Shown: positions 25,149-30,126 of the stretch, piece by piece
Position numbering within the stretch: position 1 is the stretch's first letter
Layout of the letters: each line of letters starts with the position of its first letter
NCBI RefSeq assembly: GCF_009905535.1
Contig: NZ_JAAALA010000007.1
Location: 62,001-126,000, forward strand
DNA: 64,000 nt
From: Caulobacter sp. SLTY
Lineage (GTDB): Bacteria > Pseudomonadota > Alphaproteobacteria > Caulobacterales > Caulobacteraceae
Direction of reading: 5' to 3'
Position numbers and translations under genes: made by a program
The notes under the pieces: generated by a model
The model's database searches: none
What the model was told of the DNA's origin: nothing
What the model saw: only the letters and a program-made list of their open reading frames with translations

Positions 25149-26711
25149 TTAAAACCCGCTGGCGATCGCCGTTTCCGGCCGGCTCTTTTCCTTGCGGGAG
25201 AAGAGGTTGTTCAGCGCGTTCACATAGGCCTTGGCGCTGGCCGTCAGGGTGTCGGTGTCCGCTGCCTGGCCGGTGGCGATCCGGCCATCCTCCTCGAGCC
25301 GCACCGAGACCTGCGCCTGGGCGTCCGTGCCCTCGGTCACCGCATGCACCTGGAACAGCCGCAGCGCCGCGCCGTGCGGCACGATGGCGTGGATGGCGTT
25401 GAACACCGCGTCGACCGGGCCGTCGCCCGTGGCCTCGGCCGTGCGCTCTTCGCCGTCGACGTCCAGGGTCAGCTCGGCAGACTGGCCGTCCGTCCCGGCG
25501 ACCACCCGCAGCTTGGCCACGCGGATCTTCTCAGAACCCCGCGCCAGGGCGTCGTCCACCAGGGCGATGATATCGTCATCGAAGACGTGCTTCTTCTTGT
25601 CGGCCAGTTCCTTGAACCGCACGAACGCCTCGTTCAGCGCGTTCTGGCCCAGCTCGTAGCCCAGGGCCTTCAGCTTCTCGCGGAACGCATGACGGCCCGA
25701 ATGCTTGCCCATCACCAGGTTGGTGGCGCCCTGCCCGACGTCCTCGGGCTTCATGATCTCGTAGGTCTCGGCGTTCTTCAGCATCCCGTCCTGGTGGATG
25801 CCGCTCTCGTGGGCGAAGGCGTTCTTGCCGACGATGGCCTTGTTGAACTGCACCGGGAAGCCCGTGATGGCCGAGACGTAGCGGCTGGCGCGGGTGATGT
25901 GCGAGGGATCGACGCCGGTATCGAAGCCCAGGTCCTCGCCCCGTACGCGCAGGGCCATGACGATCTCTTCCAGCGCCGCGTTGCCGGCCCGCTCGCCGAT
26001 GCCGTTGACGGCGCACTCGACCTGCCGCGCCCCGCCCTGGATGGCGGCGATGGAGTTGGCCACCGCCAGGCCCAGGTCGTTGTGGCAGTGGGCGCTGAAC
26101 ACCACCTCATCGGCGCCGGGCACCTTGGCGATCACGTCGCGGAACATCGCCCCGTATTCCTCGGGATACGAATAGCCGACCGTGTCGGGCAGGTTGATGG
26201 TCGTCGCCCCCGCCCGGATCGCCGCCTCGACGCAGCGATACAGGAACTCGCGATCAGTGCGGGTGGCGTCTTCGGCCGACCATTCGACGTCGGCGCAATG
26301 GTTGCGAGCTCGCGACACAGAAGCGGTCACCGCCTCCAGCACCGCTTCGGGCTCCATCTGCAGCTTCCACTTCATATGGACCGGGCTGGTCGAGATGAAG
26401 GTGTGGATGCGGCCCCGCGCCGCCGGCCGGATGGCCTCGGCGCAGCGGTCGATGTCGGCGGCGGCGGCGCGGGCCAGGCCGCAGACCGTGCTCTCGGTGA
26501 CGATCTTGGCGATGGCGCGGACGGCCTCGAAGTCGCCGTTGGAGGCGATCGGGAAGCCGGCCTCGATGACGTTGACCCCCATCTCCTCGAGGATCTTGGC
26601 CAGCTCCAGCTTCTCGTCGAAGCTCATGGAGGCGCCGGGCGATTGCTCGCCATCACGCATGGTGGTGTCGAAAATGACGACGCGGTGCGCGTCAGGTACG
26701 GTCACGGACAT
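25149..26711 (-). CDS. leuA: 2-isopropylmalate synthase
   Basis: 520 residues from the ATG at 26711 ([20 protein letters not shown]). It carries the HMGL-like catalytic domain with [13 protein letters not shown] near residue 15, the metal-site histidines in [16 protein letters not shown] and the NGIGERAGN motif, plus a C-terminal leucine-binding regulatory domain. It condenses acetyl-CoA with 2-ketoisovalerate, the first committed step of leucine synthesis, and should be feedback-inhibited by leucine. The frame is open farther upstream but the extra codons cover a leader region containing a Leu-rich peptide (26792-26863), so the internal start is preferred. Confidence 0.95.
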
Positions 26712-26757
26712 GGGGTAAAATCTTTCATCGCGGGTCGGTTTGGCGGGTGGAGCTTTT

Positions 26758-26825
26758 TGCCCCTGGGCGTCCCGCCGCGACGAAGGCGCAGCTAGGCGGA
26801 CATCCAGGGGCACCTAAGCCCCAGG
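26758..26825 (-). promoter_or_regulatory. Candidate leuA attenuator: competing hairpins
   Basis: Three segments on the minus strand can pair alternatively: A, CCTGGGGC (26818-26825, inside leader codons 13-16); B, TGCCCCTGG (26804-26812); and C, CCAGGGGCA (26758-26766). A can pair with B through GGGGC/GCCCC, while B and C form a perfect 9-base stem, extended by GTCCGCC with GGCGGGAC. A and C therefore compete for B, as in peptide-controlled attenuators. The B:C stem is followed by A residues, not U residues, so it is not a standard terminator; control may act on translation or through Rho. Confidence 0.5.
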
Positions 26826-26863
26826 CGGCCGAGAAGAAGCAGGCTGTCGCGCTGACGATCCAT
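26792..26863 (-). CDS. Leucine-rich leader peptide of leuA
   Basis: A 23-codon frame 81 bases upstream of leuA on the same strand, starting ATG at 26863 and ending TAG at 26792. It begins MDRQRDSLLLLGRLGL: four consecutive leucine codons (8-11) and two more at 14 and 16. Such peptides sense charged tRNA-Leu by ribosome stalling. The downstream codons overlap segments able to form competing hairpins. The ribosome site is weak (GGCGG). The recognition rests on the Leu run and position, not on a database match. Confidence 0.65.
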   Translation of the reverse strand: MDRQRDSLLLLGRLGLRCPWMSA

Positions 26864-26920
26864 GCCGCCGATGTACCGATTCAACGCGTTTGGCGCAAGA
26901 GTTTTGCGTCGCATGCGACT

Positions 26921-27538
26921 TTAGACCGCCTGCTGAGCAAGAACCTTCCGCACCGCAGGCCGCGCCCGCACCAGTTCGCAGTGATCATGAACCCTGGGGA
27001 AGCGGCGGGGGTCGATGTTCACCGTCTCCAGCCAGTCGGCCATGACGAACAGATAGACGTCGCAGAGACTGAAATCGTCGCCCAGCACCCAGGGGCCCTC
27101 CAGCATCTCCGCCTCGATGACCGCGAAACAGTCGGCATACCGCTCCGGCGCCACAGCCCGCAGATGCTCGATGCAGGCCGGATCGTCGGCCCAGCGATAG
27201 GCCCGCCTCCAGTGGGCGTAGGCGACATGCACTGTCGTGGCCAGATAGGCGTTGAACGCCTGCATCCGCGCAAAGCCGAAGGCGTCGTCCGGCGCCAGCC
27301 CCGCTTCCGGAAAGCTCTGGGCGATCCAGCCCAGAATGGCGACGTTCTCGGTGATCACCCCCTCGTCGGTGACCAGGGCCGGCACCCGGCCCTTGGGATT
27401 GATGGCCAGGTACTGCGGCTGACGCTGCTCATCCTTCGAAAAATCGACCCGCAAAGCCTGATAGGTCGCGCCCGCCTCCTCCAGCGCGATCCGCGCCACA
27501 TCGGATGCGGAACCGGGTTGATAGAACAGGGTCAGCAT
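26921..27538 (-). CDS. Glutathione S-transferase family protein
   Basis: 205 residues with an N-terminal thioredoxin-like domain (MLTLFYQPGSASDVARIALEE, then the cis-proline motif NPKGRVPALVTDEG and the glutathione-binding ITENVAIL) and a helical C-terminal domain with the capping-box region WVLGDDFSLCDVYLFV. The LFYQPGSAS start is like beta-class GSTs, where a serine or cysteine lies at the active site. It is 57 bases upstream of the leuA leader on the same strand. Substrate unknown. Confidence 0.88.
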   Translation of the reverse strand: MLTLFYQPGSASDVARIALEEAGATYQALRVDFSKDEQRQPQYLAINPKGRVPALVTDEGVITENVAILGWIAQSFPEAGLAPDDAFGFARMQAFNAYLATTVHVAYAHWRRAYRWADDPACIEHLRAVAPERYADCFAVIEAEMLEGPWVLGDDFSLCDVYLFVMADWLETVNIDPRRFPRVHDHCELVRARPAVRKVLAQQAV

Positions 27539-27560: not shown

Positions 27561-29507
27561 CTACTCCGGCCGCGTCACGATCGGGAAGTCTCCTTTCGGT
27601 GCATCGAACCAGCCGACCATCCTGGCCAGCACTCCGATATCCCCCTCCACCTTGGCCTCGCCCGCGGCCACCTTGGCCGCCAGCGGCTGGCCGCTGAACA
27701 AGGACTGTAGGAACAGAGCCCGCGGCAGGGTGATGGTGGCGTCTGCCTTGGCCCCCTCCGCCGCCGGCCGGGCGACCAGCACCTGGTTGCGCACCGTCAC
27801 CAGATACCGCTCCTTCCGCTCAGGGAAGACGAACAGAACCGCCGCCCTGCCCTCACCCACCTTGGCCGGGTTCAGCCGCACCGCCATCAGGTCGAAGAGC
27901 ATCGGTGTCGGCAGGTTGACGATGAAGTCGGCGCTGCCGCTTACCGGCGAGGCTTCCGGCGTTCCGCTCCGCAGCTCGCTGGCGCCCGACAGATAGATGT
28001 TCCGCCACAGCGAACTCTCCGCCTGCCAGCCCATCTGGTCATAGGTCCTGGCCAGCCGCGCCCGCGCGTCGGCGTCGGCCGGATCGGCCAGCACCGCCTT
28101 GTTCAGCAGGTTGGACGCCCAGCGATAGTCGCCCTTGTCATAGGCCGCCTGCGCCAGCGCCTTGACCCGGTCCGGCCCGCCCATCGCCTCGACGTAGCGC
28201 ACCGCCTCCTCGGCCGGCGGCATGGCGGCCAGGCTGACCGGATTGGCGTCGTACCAGCCCATGTAGCGCTGATAGACCGCCCGGCTGTTGAAGCTCATCG
28301 TCCCGTAGTAGCCGCGATTGAACCACTGCCGCGCCAGCGCCGGCGGCAGGGTCAGCCGGTCGGCGATCTCGCTTCCGACATAGCCCTGGTTCATCAACCG
28401 CACCGATTGGTCGTGCAGGTACTTATAGGCGTCCCGCTGGCCGCTGAGGTGCTCGCTCACCGTCTCGCGGCCGAACCTCGGCCAGCCGTGGCTGGTGAAC
28501 AGGGTGTCGGTCCGTTCCCCATACAGCTCCGCCGCCTCGGTCAGGGCGTCGGCCCAGGCCTTGGCGTCCCGAACCAGCGCCCCGCGCGGGGTAAGCACGT
28601 TGTGGAGGGTCGGGCTGGCGTTCTCCGCCATGCACAGCACCCGCCAGGCCGGGAAGTAGAGGTTCATCTCCGCCGGCGCCTCGGTGTTCGGCGTCATCTG
28701 GAATTCGATGGCCACGCCGTCGACCGTCAGGGTCTCGCCGGTCCGGGTGACGGTCTCGGTGGGCGGAACCAGCGAGGTCGTCCCCCGGGAGACCGCCTGC
28801 CCGATGCCGACGCTCATCTGCCCCTCGGGACCGGGCGTCAGCGGATAGCCGAATTGATAGGTCGCCCGCCGCCCCATGGCCGGCCCGGCGATGACGTTCT
28901 CCGATACCGCCTCCTCCAGAAAGCCGTGCGGCGCGATGATCCGCACCTGTCCCACTGCCAGCCGCGCCGGGTCGATCACGCCGCGCGCGCCGCCGAAGTG
29001 GTCGATGTGGCTGTGGGTGTAGATCACAGCAACCACGGGACGGGCGCCAAGCGTCTCGTTGGCCAGATCCAGCGCCGCCTTTGCGGTCTCGACGCTGGTC
29101 AGCGGGTCGATGACGATCCAGCCGGTGTCGCCGGCCACCAGGGTCATGTTGGCCGCATCGAAACCGCGCACCTGCCAGACCCGATCGGAAACCTTGAACA
29201 GCCCGTGGATAGCCAGCAGCTGCGACTGTCGCCACAGGCTGGGGTTCACCGTCTCCGGCGCCTCCCCCTTGAGGAAGTCGTAGGCCGACAGATCCCAGGC
29301 GACGCCCCCGTCGGCCCGACGGATGACCGGGTCCTTGCGGGTGGCGACAAACCCTCGCCGCGCGAAGTCGAAGTCCTGTCGATCGGCGAACGGCAGCTCC
29401 GCGCGAACCTTCGCCTGCGCCGCCCGCGTGGCCGCAGACGCCGGCTCACCCGCCTGAACCGGGGTCGCCAGAGCTAGGGCCACGATCACCGCCACCAATC
29501 CACGCAT
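27561..29507 (-). CDS. Alkylsulfatase of the metallo-beta-lactamase fold
   Basis: 648 residues: a signal peptide (MRGLVAVIVALALATPVQA), a metallo-beta-lactamase catalytic domain with the zinc motif THSHIDHFGG (about residues 163-172), an alkylsulfatase dimerisation domain with the segment GYVGSEIADRLTLPP, and a C-terminal SCP2-like domain. This is the architecture of SdsA1-type periplasmic linear alkylsulfatases, which hydrolyse detergents such as dodecyl sulfate to the alcohol and sulfate. Close relatives act on other sulfate esters, so the substrate is an inference. It is 22 bases before the GST gene. Confidence 0.9.
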   Translation of the reverse strand: MRGLVAVIVALALATPVQAGEPASAATRAAQAKVRAELPFADRQDFDFARRGFVATRKDPVIRRADGGVAWDLSAYDFLKGEAPETVNPSLWRQSQLLAIHGLFKVSDRVWQVRGFDAANMTLVAGDTGWIVIDPLTSVETAKAALDLANETLGARPVVAVIYTHSHIDHFGGARGVIDPARLAVGQVRIIAPHGFLEEAVSENVIAGPAMGRRATYQFGYPLTPGPEGQMSVGIGQAVSRGTTSLVPPTETVTRTGETLTVDGVAIEFQMTPNTEAPAEMNLYFPAWRVLCMAENASPTLHNVLTPRGALVRDAKAWADALTEAAELYGERTDTLFTSHGWPRFGRETVSEHLSGQRDAYKYLHDQSVRLMNQGYVGSEIADRLTLPPALARQWFNRGYYGTMSFNSRAVYQRYMGWYDANPVSLAAMPPAEEAVRYVEAMGGPDRVKALAQAAYDKGDYRWASNLLNKAVLADPADADARARLARTYDQMGWQAESSLWRNIYLSGASELRSGTPEASPVSGSADFIVNLPTPMLFDLMAVRLNPAKVGEGRAAVLFVFPERKERYLVTVRNQVLVARPAAEGAKADATITLPRALFLQSLFSGQPLAAKVAAGEAKVEGDIGVLARMVGWFDAPKGDFPIVTRPE

Positions 29508-29578: not shown

Positions 29579-29869
29579 CTAGACTTCAGGTTCCGGCGGC
29601 CACTGCTGTGCGCCATAAAGCACCCTAAGAATGTTCAGGTCGCCGGCATGGAGTCGGTAGACGATCAGATAGGGGGTTCCCGGAATGACTCGCTCTCGTG
29701 TGCCTTCCACTCTTCCAACCCTGCCCATCAACGACTCGTCCGAAAGGCGATCGGCACGGGCGTAGATTGCTCGCACCATCTTGGCGGCTGCGCCGAGATT
29801 GCGATCAGCGAGATAATCGCCGATCTTCAGTACGTCGCGTCGCGCGGCGCTGGACCAGATTGTCCTCAT
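29579..29869 (-). CDS. ParE/RelE-superfamily toxin
   Basis: 96 residues with the ParE layout: IWSSAARRDVLKIGDYLADRN (helical hairpin), MGRVGRVEGTRERVIPGTPYLIVYRL (beta sheet) and the final ILRVLYGAQQWP. The VLYGAQQWP end is typical of ParE, which poisons gyrase, rather than of RelE ribonucleases. It overlaps the antitoxin by 4 bases. It is the second toxin-antitoxin module in the window. Confidence 0.88.
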   Translation of the reverse strand: MRTIWSSAARRDVLKIGDYLADRNLGAAAKMVRAIYARADRLSDESLMGRVGRVEGTRERVIPGTPYLIVYRLHAGDLNILRVLYGAQQWPPEPEV

Positions 29870-30126
29870 CCGGCCGGCGGAGCGCCTTTGTCCCGCAGAA
29901 GCGTCTCGAGCGACTCGACAACTTCATCATGGGTGAAGGTCCGCCCCGCCTCGATATCATCAATGCCTTCCTGCACCGCAGCGACCCAGGCATCCGGGCC
30001 TCGAAAGGCGCCCAAATCCGCAGACTCGACCAGCAGTTCCGACAGAGTAATTTGCCGCCGTTCGGCCTCCGCATCCAGCCGGGCCTTCTGTTCTTCGGTC
30101 AGTTCAATGGTGACTTGGACGGTCAT
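29866..30126 (-). CDS. Antitoxin partner of the ParE-like toxin
   Basis: 86 residues with an N-terminal ribbon-helix-helix DNA-binding region (MTVQVTIELTEEQKARLDAE followed by ITLSELLVESA) and a longer C-terminal part with GIDDIEAGRTFTHDEVVESL, the usual toxin-binding segment of ParD/CopG-type antitoxins. It is first in the operon and probably autorepresses it. The module lies between the alkylsulfatase and TVP38-type genes, all on the minus strand. Confidence 0.85.
   Translation of the reverse strand: MTVQVTIELTEEQKARLDAEAERRQITLSELLVESADLGAFRGPDAWVAAVQEGIDDIEAGRTFTHDEVVESLETLLRDKGAPPAG

Follow-up and report, generated by a model that had tools for sequence, protein, structure and literature searches.

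Conserved leucine-codon leader and RNA stem upstream of leuA in Caulobacteraceae and other Alphaproteobacteria, with a possible output at translation initiation

The window, a stretch of 64,000 nucleotides from Caulobacter sp. SLTY, carries the leuA gene on its minus strand, and the encoded 2-isopropylmalate synthase is 93% identical to LeuA of a Caulobacter sp. assembly. Upstream of leuA lies a leader open reading frame too short for common gene callers (Table 1). As the preliminary description had proposed, this frame comprises 23 codons with four consecutive leucine codons and two more, and it overlaps segments A and B, A overlapping leader codons 13-16; the distance to leuA, given there as 81 bases, is in fact 80 nt (26791-26712). 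A second short frame encoding ATGAAAGATTTTACCCCATGTCCGTGA (26728-26702), which overlaps the leuA start, was rejected, since L083-L087 and L089 lack an ATG at the corresponding site. Immediately before the leader lies a glutathione-transferase-like gene (GST_N, 26921-27538, minus), with the predicted leader promoter inside the 57-nt gap. It is preceded on the same strand by a gene for a metallo-beta-lactamase-fold alkyl sulfatase of 648 aa (27561-29507; PF14863, PF14864, PF00753) and by two overlapping small frames (29579-29869 and 29866-30126) corresponding to a ParE-type toxin (PF05016, 1.5e-16) and, probably, to an antitoxin of the ribbon-helix-helix kind, whose RHH_1 match falls just below the cut-off.

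Table 1. Coordinates of leuA and of the leader features in the window
Feature	Coordinates	Strand	Description
-35 box	26898-26893	minus	TTGCGC, read from sequence; TTGC at -36..-33 favoured in 118 aligned leaders
-10 box	26875-26870	minus	TACATC (-12..-7), 17-nt spacer to -35; prediction only
Leader ORF	26863-26792	minus	23 codons + TAG, encodes MDRQRDSLLLLGRLGLRCPWMSA; homologous leaders in relatives
Leader start and stop codons	ATG 26863-26861, TAG 26794-26792	minus	Read from sequence
Leucine run	26842-26831	minus	CTG CTT CTT CTC, four consecutive Leu codons in the leader ORF
Further leucine codons	CTG 26824-26822, CTT 26818-26816	minus	Two further Leu codons of the leader
Segment A	26825-26818	minus	CCUGGGGC; can pair over 5 bp with B
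Segment B	26812-26804	minus	UGCCCCUGG; conserved, compensatory changes against C
Nested hairpin P2	26792-26787 with 26779-26774, loop 26786-26780	minus	Drawn by eye; starts at the leader stop codon
Segment X	26784-26775	minus	UUCGUCGCGG; proposed anti-RBS strand in the loop and 3′ arm of P2
Segment C	26766-26758	minus	CCAGGGGCA; 9 bp with B
Inner part of proposed OFF hairpin	CGGG 26774-26771 with CCCG 26747-26744; C:D GGGGC 26763-26759 with GCUCC 26753-26749	minus	
Segment Y	26733-26724	minus	CCGCGAUGAA; 13-22 nt before the leuA ATG, overlaps GAAAGA
Probable leuA ribosome-binding site (RBS)	26726-26721	minus	GAAAGA, purine-rich; inferred identity, similar purine tracts here in relatives
leuA, 2-isopropylmalate synthase	25149-26711, ATG at 26711	minus	NCBIfam NF002087 1.5e-258 and TIGR00973 8.2e-209, both above cut-off

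For the comparison with relatives, 259 loci were considered, five of which had no LeuA core motif (L002, L142, L240, L254 and L255) and four more fewer than 250 bases before it. The label Caulobacteraceae type rests on close similarity of leuA together with the search group and implies no check of taxonomy; the loci so named include assemblies titled only uncultured Alphaproteobacteria (five), Proteobacteria (one) and Caulobacterales (one). A strict motif (CUUA or close, CCCCUG, CAGGGG) was present in 152 of the 156 close loci, which represent 126 distinct ones, and in 51 of 94 other loci, chiefly from other Alphaproteobacteria; removal of duplicates left 119 Caulobacteraceae-type and 51 other leaders. 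Among these 51, of which a similarity filter kept 36, are ten loci (L196-L206 except L200) that belong to the same family as the window and carry a divergent leuA. Many of the 43 other loci missed by the strict motif carry leucine-rich frames and other stems; they were not counted as positive. The ribosome-masking tests and an own-partner comparison of X with Y were run on 67 leaders, and the tree-based test on 84 leaders with a full leuA.

The conservation of the leucine codons, proposed earlier as a check, was borne out: by one rule, 81 of 88 close loci have a leucine-cluster frame before leuA, its tail mostly reading LGLSRPWA or a near variant. An in-frame leader ATG was found in 118 of the 119 distinct Caulobacteraceae-type leaders, which had been chosen by motif. 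The codon CTT accounts for 376 of the 705 leucine codons in leaders, against 33 of 3084 in the leuA coding sequence examined.

The perfect stem announced between B and C holds over all nine base pairs, and the hairpins A:B and B:C compete as suggested, being mutually exclusive; A:B has 5 bp in the window and, judged by sequence only, is weaker in the C. vibrioides clade. Folding of the single leader sequence was only weakly unusual (z -1.86, with 9 of 200 shuffles as stable), but conservation settles the matter against a chance origin of leader and stem. The B:C element is present in all 156 readable close loci, in 152 by the strict motif and in the remaining four (three distinct) by matched stem changes, CCCCCG facing CGGGGG with both strands altered. 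Changes in the B:C core, both these and those of the second leuA type described below, were read by eye. Covariation was tested on a 49-row alignment of divergent leaders. In that alignment, which leaves out L230, rows were picked by a motif fixing the inner 6 bp of B:C, so that the four outer pairs are the informative ones. The extended stem accumulated 21 two-sided changes there, versus 3.4 in shuffles, a value reached by none of 500, and 93.6% of its cells were paired versus at most 65.7% when the strands were slid. The number of pairs with a two-sided change, four, was reached by 36 of 500 shuffles, and the remaining four covariation measures by 0 to 3 of 500. RNAalifold predicted B:C as the sole stem of this alignment. 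The covariation sought in the preliminary description is thus found, and these comparisons indicate that B:C is a real RNA stem with compensatory changes. We consider it almost certain that leader and B:C element alike are genuine, conserved and linked to leucine.

A further pairing is possible between UGGGGCUU in A and AAGCUCCA just after C (span 26825-26748, minus), which would enclose B:C. It appears when the whole leader is folded to minimum energy and would constitute a third state.

A covariance model, R1, gave 57 matches at E 1e-3 or better in 191 alphaproteobacterial genomes, with at most 26 candidates scored per genome, and all 57 lie before isopropylmalate synthase genes. Fifty-four are within 500 nt upstream of a same-strand leuA match. 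A leuA match of this kind was present in 98 genomes, 54 of which gave the leader at this threshold and 58 at E 0.1. Of the other three matches, two are cut by contig ends and one belongs to a second leuA type. In the window's own genome, this leader is the only match below E 0.1. As R1 was built from leuA leaders, many of them from the genomes then searched, those matches arise by construction, and the absence of strong matches elsewhere is the informative part. A known RNA family was rejected as an identity for the leader, since Rfam at gathering thresholds gave no match in the window or in 20 related loci; the four weak matches (up to E 10) at 26600-27000 were far below gathering scores, and Leu_leader was not among them. 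The analysis adds a conserved leader and an RNA element that no Rfam family matched at the loci examined.

Regarding the promoter, alignment of 118 leaders on their ATG revealed a -10 block rich in A and T at -13..-8, shifted by one base from that of the window, and a C at -1 in 90% of them. From this conserved spacing relative to the leader ATG, the predicted first transcribed base is the A of that ATG (26863), which would make the mRNA leaderless. A sigma-70 consensus scan of the window stretch found no promoter at the leader, so the prediction rests on conservation and spacing. A start downstream of 26863 had been named as an observation that would speak against the leader; the conserved promoter instead points to 26863. 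Leaderless starts are described as common in C. crescentus, with 375 mapped (PMC4117421).

The absence of a U-run after B:C, noted from the start, was confirmed, the nearest run of at least four being UUUU at 26720-26717. A terminator-like hairpin with a U-rich tail was found in 1 of the 119 Caulobacteraceae-type and 4 of the 51 other leaders by a scan allowing loops of 3-8, and a run of at least five U between C and the leuA ATG, a count that also covers longer hairpins, in 1 of 119 and 2 of 51. No intrinsic terminator is conserved before leuA. At the level of sequence comparison, the leader frame with its rare leucine codons, the B:C stem and the promoter spacing are consistent across relatives, as is this lack of a terminator. 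Classical attenuation, by an intrinsic terminator that the scans missed, would fit the layout of leader, A, B and C, which copies the classical one, and the window does hold a terminator-like hairpin at 26694-26678, within the first leuA codons. We nevertheless consider this reading very improbable, given the rarity of terminators before leuA and the position of that hairpin in conserved leuA codons. Only 6 of 119 relatives including the window show a terminator-like site in the interval from the leuA ATG to the conserved core, and with only five counterparts the hairpin was rejected as an intrinsic terminator. The UUUU alone is present at the first-codon site in 33 of 119, as part of conserved codons.

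Complementarity of leader strands to the ribosome-binding region of leuA, taken as the stretch from 24 to 4 nt before its ATG, was scored for each leader's own pair versus permuted pairs, a comparison made throughout without GC-content control. In the 119 Caulobacteraceae-type leaders, it peaked at the loop and 3′ arm of the nested hairpin P2, at -12.0 kcal/mol for own versus -10.3 for permuted pairs (z -9.2, 0 of 1000 permutations, relatedness ignored), with no excess at the leucine codons (z -0.4 to +0.5, b-24..b-12). In the 51 other leaders, it was strongest at the last leucine codons (z -4.3, 0 of 1000), with the windows beside them also raised and little signal near C (z about -1.7). The 36 less redundant leaders retained the leucine-codon signal (z -4.2, 0 of 5000); c-24 (z -3.0) and adjacent windows were raised there too. 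In sequence terms, the excess complementarity to the RBS thus lies at different places of the leader in the two groups. A hairpin equivalent to P2 is present in relatives, and the minimum-energy fold of the window draws its inner part slightly differently.

A second peak was observed in the Caulobacteraceae type about 42-30 nt before B, near the leader start (b-42, z -6.4, 0 of 1000); it is not explained by the model proposed below, and the tree-based test gave it no support at b-45..-27 (p 0.23). Since the permutations ignore relatedness and this peak exists, the permutation z-values overstate the case. With tree-independent pairs from the 84 leaders, own partners were better at P2 in 17.8 and crossed partners in 7.2 of about 35 pairs, the median p of 0.043 being uncorrected, the best of 17 scan windows and from a window drawn after earlier results were known. 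Own-partner complementarity of X and Y also exceeded that of permuted partners in the 67-leader comparison. At X(-2), the pair with Y reads U:A in 40 and G:C in 33 of the 119 leaders, versus U:C in one and G:A in nine (six from one clade), with 36 other or unassigned. This corresponds to about four independent contrasts, 2.7 going the same way and none the opposite, which is not significant, and per-position covariation on the tree was too sparse. Examples of complementary strands are CTTCGCGGG with CCCGCGAAG in L036, CGTCGCGG with CCGCGACG in L084 and, outside the family, UCCUUCGA with UCGAAGGA in L230. The X:Y register is absent in several leaders (L003, L007, L016, L094-L096, L107), and in the clade of C. 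vibrioides DSM 9893 (L006) the core helix has about 6 bp and folding proceeds mostly without a switch.

These results bear on two other outputs. The main rival and next-ranked explanation is Rho-dependent transcription attenuation, in which leader translation and B:C would decide Rho loading on a C-rich spacer. Judged within these leaders themselves, the spacer of the 119 Caulobacteraceae-type leaders, with 40% C and 19% G, would resemble a Rho-loading site, and the lack of a conserved intrinsic terminator agrees with this. However, the bias is slight in the 51 others (31% C, 25% G) despite the same leader and stem, and Rho leaves the excess of leader-RBS complementarity unexplained; we regard it as unlikely. 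Leucine starvation could also be sensed as proposed but act mainly on mRNA stability, a stalled ribosome or B:C protecting the leader from decay. This would suit a stem so highly conserved without a conserved terminator and has an analogy in ermB, for which mRNA stabilization is given as one believed mechanism (PMC9178857), but nothing in it leads one to expect RBS complementarity whose location differs between the two groups, and we judge it improbable.

As for the output, for which the preliminary description had left Rho or ribosome access as candidates, ribosome access is likelier than transcription termination, because the outer 10-bp stem X:Y extends into the leuA ribosome-binding region on its upstream side. 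The weaker C:D hairpin (GGGGC-AAAAA-GCTCC) that the preliminary description had offered as the alternative state does exist, but we read it as the mere apex of a longer hairpin whose outer stem is X:Y, 10 bp in the window including one G-U. X:Y, CGGG:CCCG and C:D together give a hairpin of -25.4 kcal/mol in the window; its inner helices were not seen as such in most relatives examined.

Folding of the window leader with the ribosome modelled gave an X:Y probability of 0.91-0.94 for a ribosome at the stop codon, 0.39 with A masked and 0.00 for the unmasked whole leader, where B:C dominates; a fold begun at 26814 already favours X:Y. Pairing of the RBS was 0.60-0.80, 0.55 and 0.48, respectively. 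In this model, two states of similar stability compete in the window, and the position of the ribosome could decide between them; the switch proposed below builds on this competition, which does not prove it. Across 67 leaders, a first masking test revealed no switching of RBS accessibility (amplitude -0.002 for natural versus 0.032 for shuffled sequences). Because this mask cut into strand X, the footprint past the stop was shortened from 12 to 9 nt in a second test, in which pairing was scored to X specifically. Pairing between X and the RBS was then 0.089 in the stalled state and 0.348 at the stop for natural leaders, compared with 0.025 and 0.260 for shuffled spacers, and at the stop the natural value exceeded the shuffled one in 47 of 67 leaders. 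Total RBS pairing in the same test changed little, from 0.422 stalled to 0.461 at the stop, the latter not above that of shuffled spacers (0.487). Together with the b-42 peak, this last value weakens the permutation and folding evidence for a translational output. In the other leaders, pairing of the RBS with the leucine codons was 0.293 versus 0.134 in shuffled sequences (p 0.002), and masking these codons did not open the RBS significantly more than in controls (p 0.17).

The best-supported explanation, to which we give slightly less than an even chance, is a leader-peptide attenuator that responds to leucine and most likely acts on the initiation of leuA translation, through occlusion of the leuA RBS. 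Three parts of this model are inferred: that ribosomes stall, which way the switch works and that translation is what it controls. Transcription would begin at or next to the leader AUG, giving a leaderless mRNA from which the leader would be translated. Under a shortage of charged Leu-tRNA, the ribosome would stall on the rare leucine codons and cover A, leaving B to pair with C while P2 holds X, so that the ribosome-binding region of leuA would stay free (ON). With ample leucine, the ribosome would reach the stop codon next to the P2 5′ arm and cover both B and that arm; C and X would be released, and the X:Y hairpin would close over the ribosome-binding region on its upstream side (OFF). 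The other Alphaproteobacteria share this leader and the B:C stem, but there the strand complementary to the RBS is formed by the last leucine codons, and a stalled ribosome would free the RBS directly.

The leaders of the two groups also differ in where translation ends. In 47 of the 51 others the stop codon UGA lies inside B, where the Caulobacteraceae type reads UGG in 114 of 119, its peptide running past B to a stop next to P2. The UGA inside B may be the older state. A wider reading of the translational model is possible but doubtful: an alphaproteobacterial leucine element would control leuA translation without a terminator, and the anti-RBS role would have moved from the leucine codons, as in most orders, to P2 in Caulobacteraceae, along with the shift of the stop from UGA in B to just before P2, so that the terminating ribosome would expose the new anti-RBS strand. 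If the RBS is the target, this would represent a ribosome-driven RNA switch in which sensor and core stem are retained and the strand used for output differs from lineage to lineage.

The sequence just before B also varies, reading GGGCUUA in 81 of the 119 Caulobacteraceae-type leaders, and CGACUUA in 28 and CUCCUUA (Arg to Leu) in 11 of the 51 others. CGACUUA, an Arg and a Leu codon just upstream of CCCCTGA (for example in L220, L230 and L249), is strikingly kept at the nucleotide level outside Caulobacteraceae, beyond what leucine sensing alone explains. It would be accounted for if the leader tail, often L-R-L-x-R-P-stop in these groups, sensed leucine directly, as an arrest peptide or as the target of a protein or metabolite, RBS pairing being secondary, and the recurrence of CGACUUA in several second-type leaders with different stems agrees with this. 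Yet the Arg codon is replaced by Leu in the CUCCUUA leaders and by Gly in the GGGCUUA ones, the peptide is not strictly kept, and the richness in leucine codons fits tRNA sensing, which makes such a tail quite improbable as the sensor.

Leader-peptide control of amino-acid genes has mostly been described as transcription attenuation. In erm and cat translational attenuators, a leader frame is combined with an alternative hairpin that hides the downstream RBS, as proposed here; in the leuA leader, unlike in these, the signal would be uncharged Leu-tRNA and not an antibiotic, the gene is biosynthetic and the leader is predicted to be leaderless. Classical attenuators such as E. coli leuL (Rfam Leu_leader; PMC6123439) share the regulatory leucine codons and mutually exclusive stems, whereas the present leader has no conserved intrinsic terminator and no Rfam match; on our reading, the place of the terminator is taken by a hairpin over the RBS. 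Among alphaproteobacterial amino-acid leader peptides, S. meliloti trpL, described as leaderless (PMC10117765) as is predicted for the leuA leader, and the C. crescentus ilv leader (PMC4117421) are comparable, but both are described as transcription attenuators, unlike a leuA leader without a conserved terminator.

The nearest described case is the LEU element of actinobacterial leuA, in which the leader leucine run pairs with the leuA Shine-Dalgarno box and for which a pseudoknot and a binding protein were proposed (Seliverstov et al. 2005, PMC1262725). Both systems place a leucine-run leader before leuA, no terminator being reported in that account, and the form outside Caulobacteraceae, with leucine codons pairing with the RBS, resembles its layout. 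The LEU-type base stem between leucine codons and Shine-Dalgarno box is supported statistically in these other leaders but not in the Caulobacteraceae type, where the RBS partner is the nested hairpin; the bacteria also differ, as does the stem, here CCCCUGA/UCAGGGG. If the RBS is the target, the present leader would support a design held in common with the LEU element. A leuA leader has also been attributed to C. glutamicum (PMC4046766). A review places putative leader peptides and terminators before branched-chain genes of various Gram-negatives, this case being unnamed in the portion consulted (PMC6123439), and another paper mentions an ilvB leader peptide in Alphaproteobacteria, with no "leuA" in the corresponding portion (PMC1273637). 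Among the top-ranked open-licence PMC papers, no identifiable description of an alphaproteobacterial leuA leader was found; Vitreschak et al. 2004, on proteobacterial attenuators, may mention it. A widespread leucine leader apparently acts without a terminator here, which is directly testable in a model bacterium.

A second type of leuA, represented by L277, which matches TIGR00970 and NF002991 above cut-off, is found among the loci. No such leader was seen by eye in L289-L307, and L279 was unreadable, while about ten loci (L280-L288, L308) have one by the same reading. In these and L277, a frame with Arg-Leu near its end is followed by a B:C-like hairpin that keeps its location and changes its sequence, CCCUUGGG/CCCAAGGG in L277 and GCUGUCGGG/CCCGACGGC in L284.
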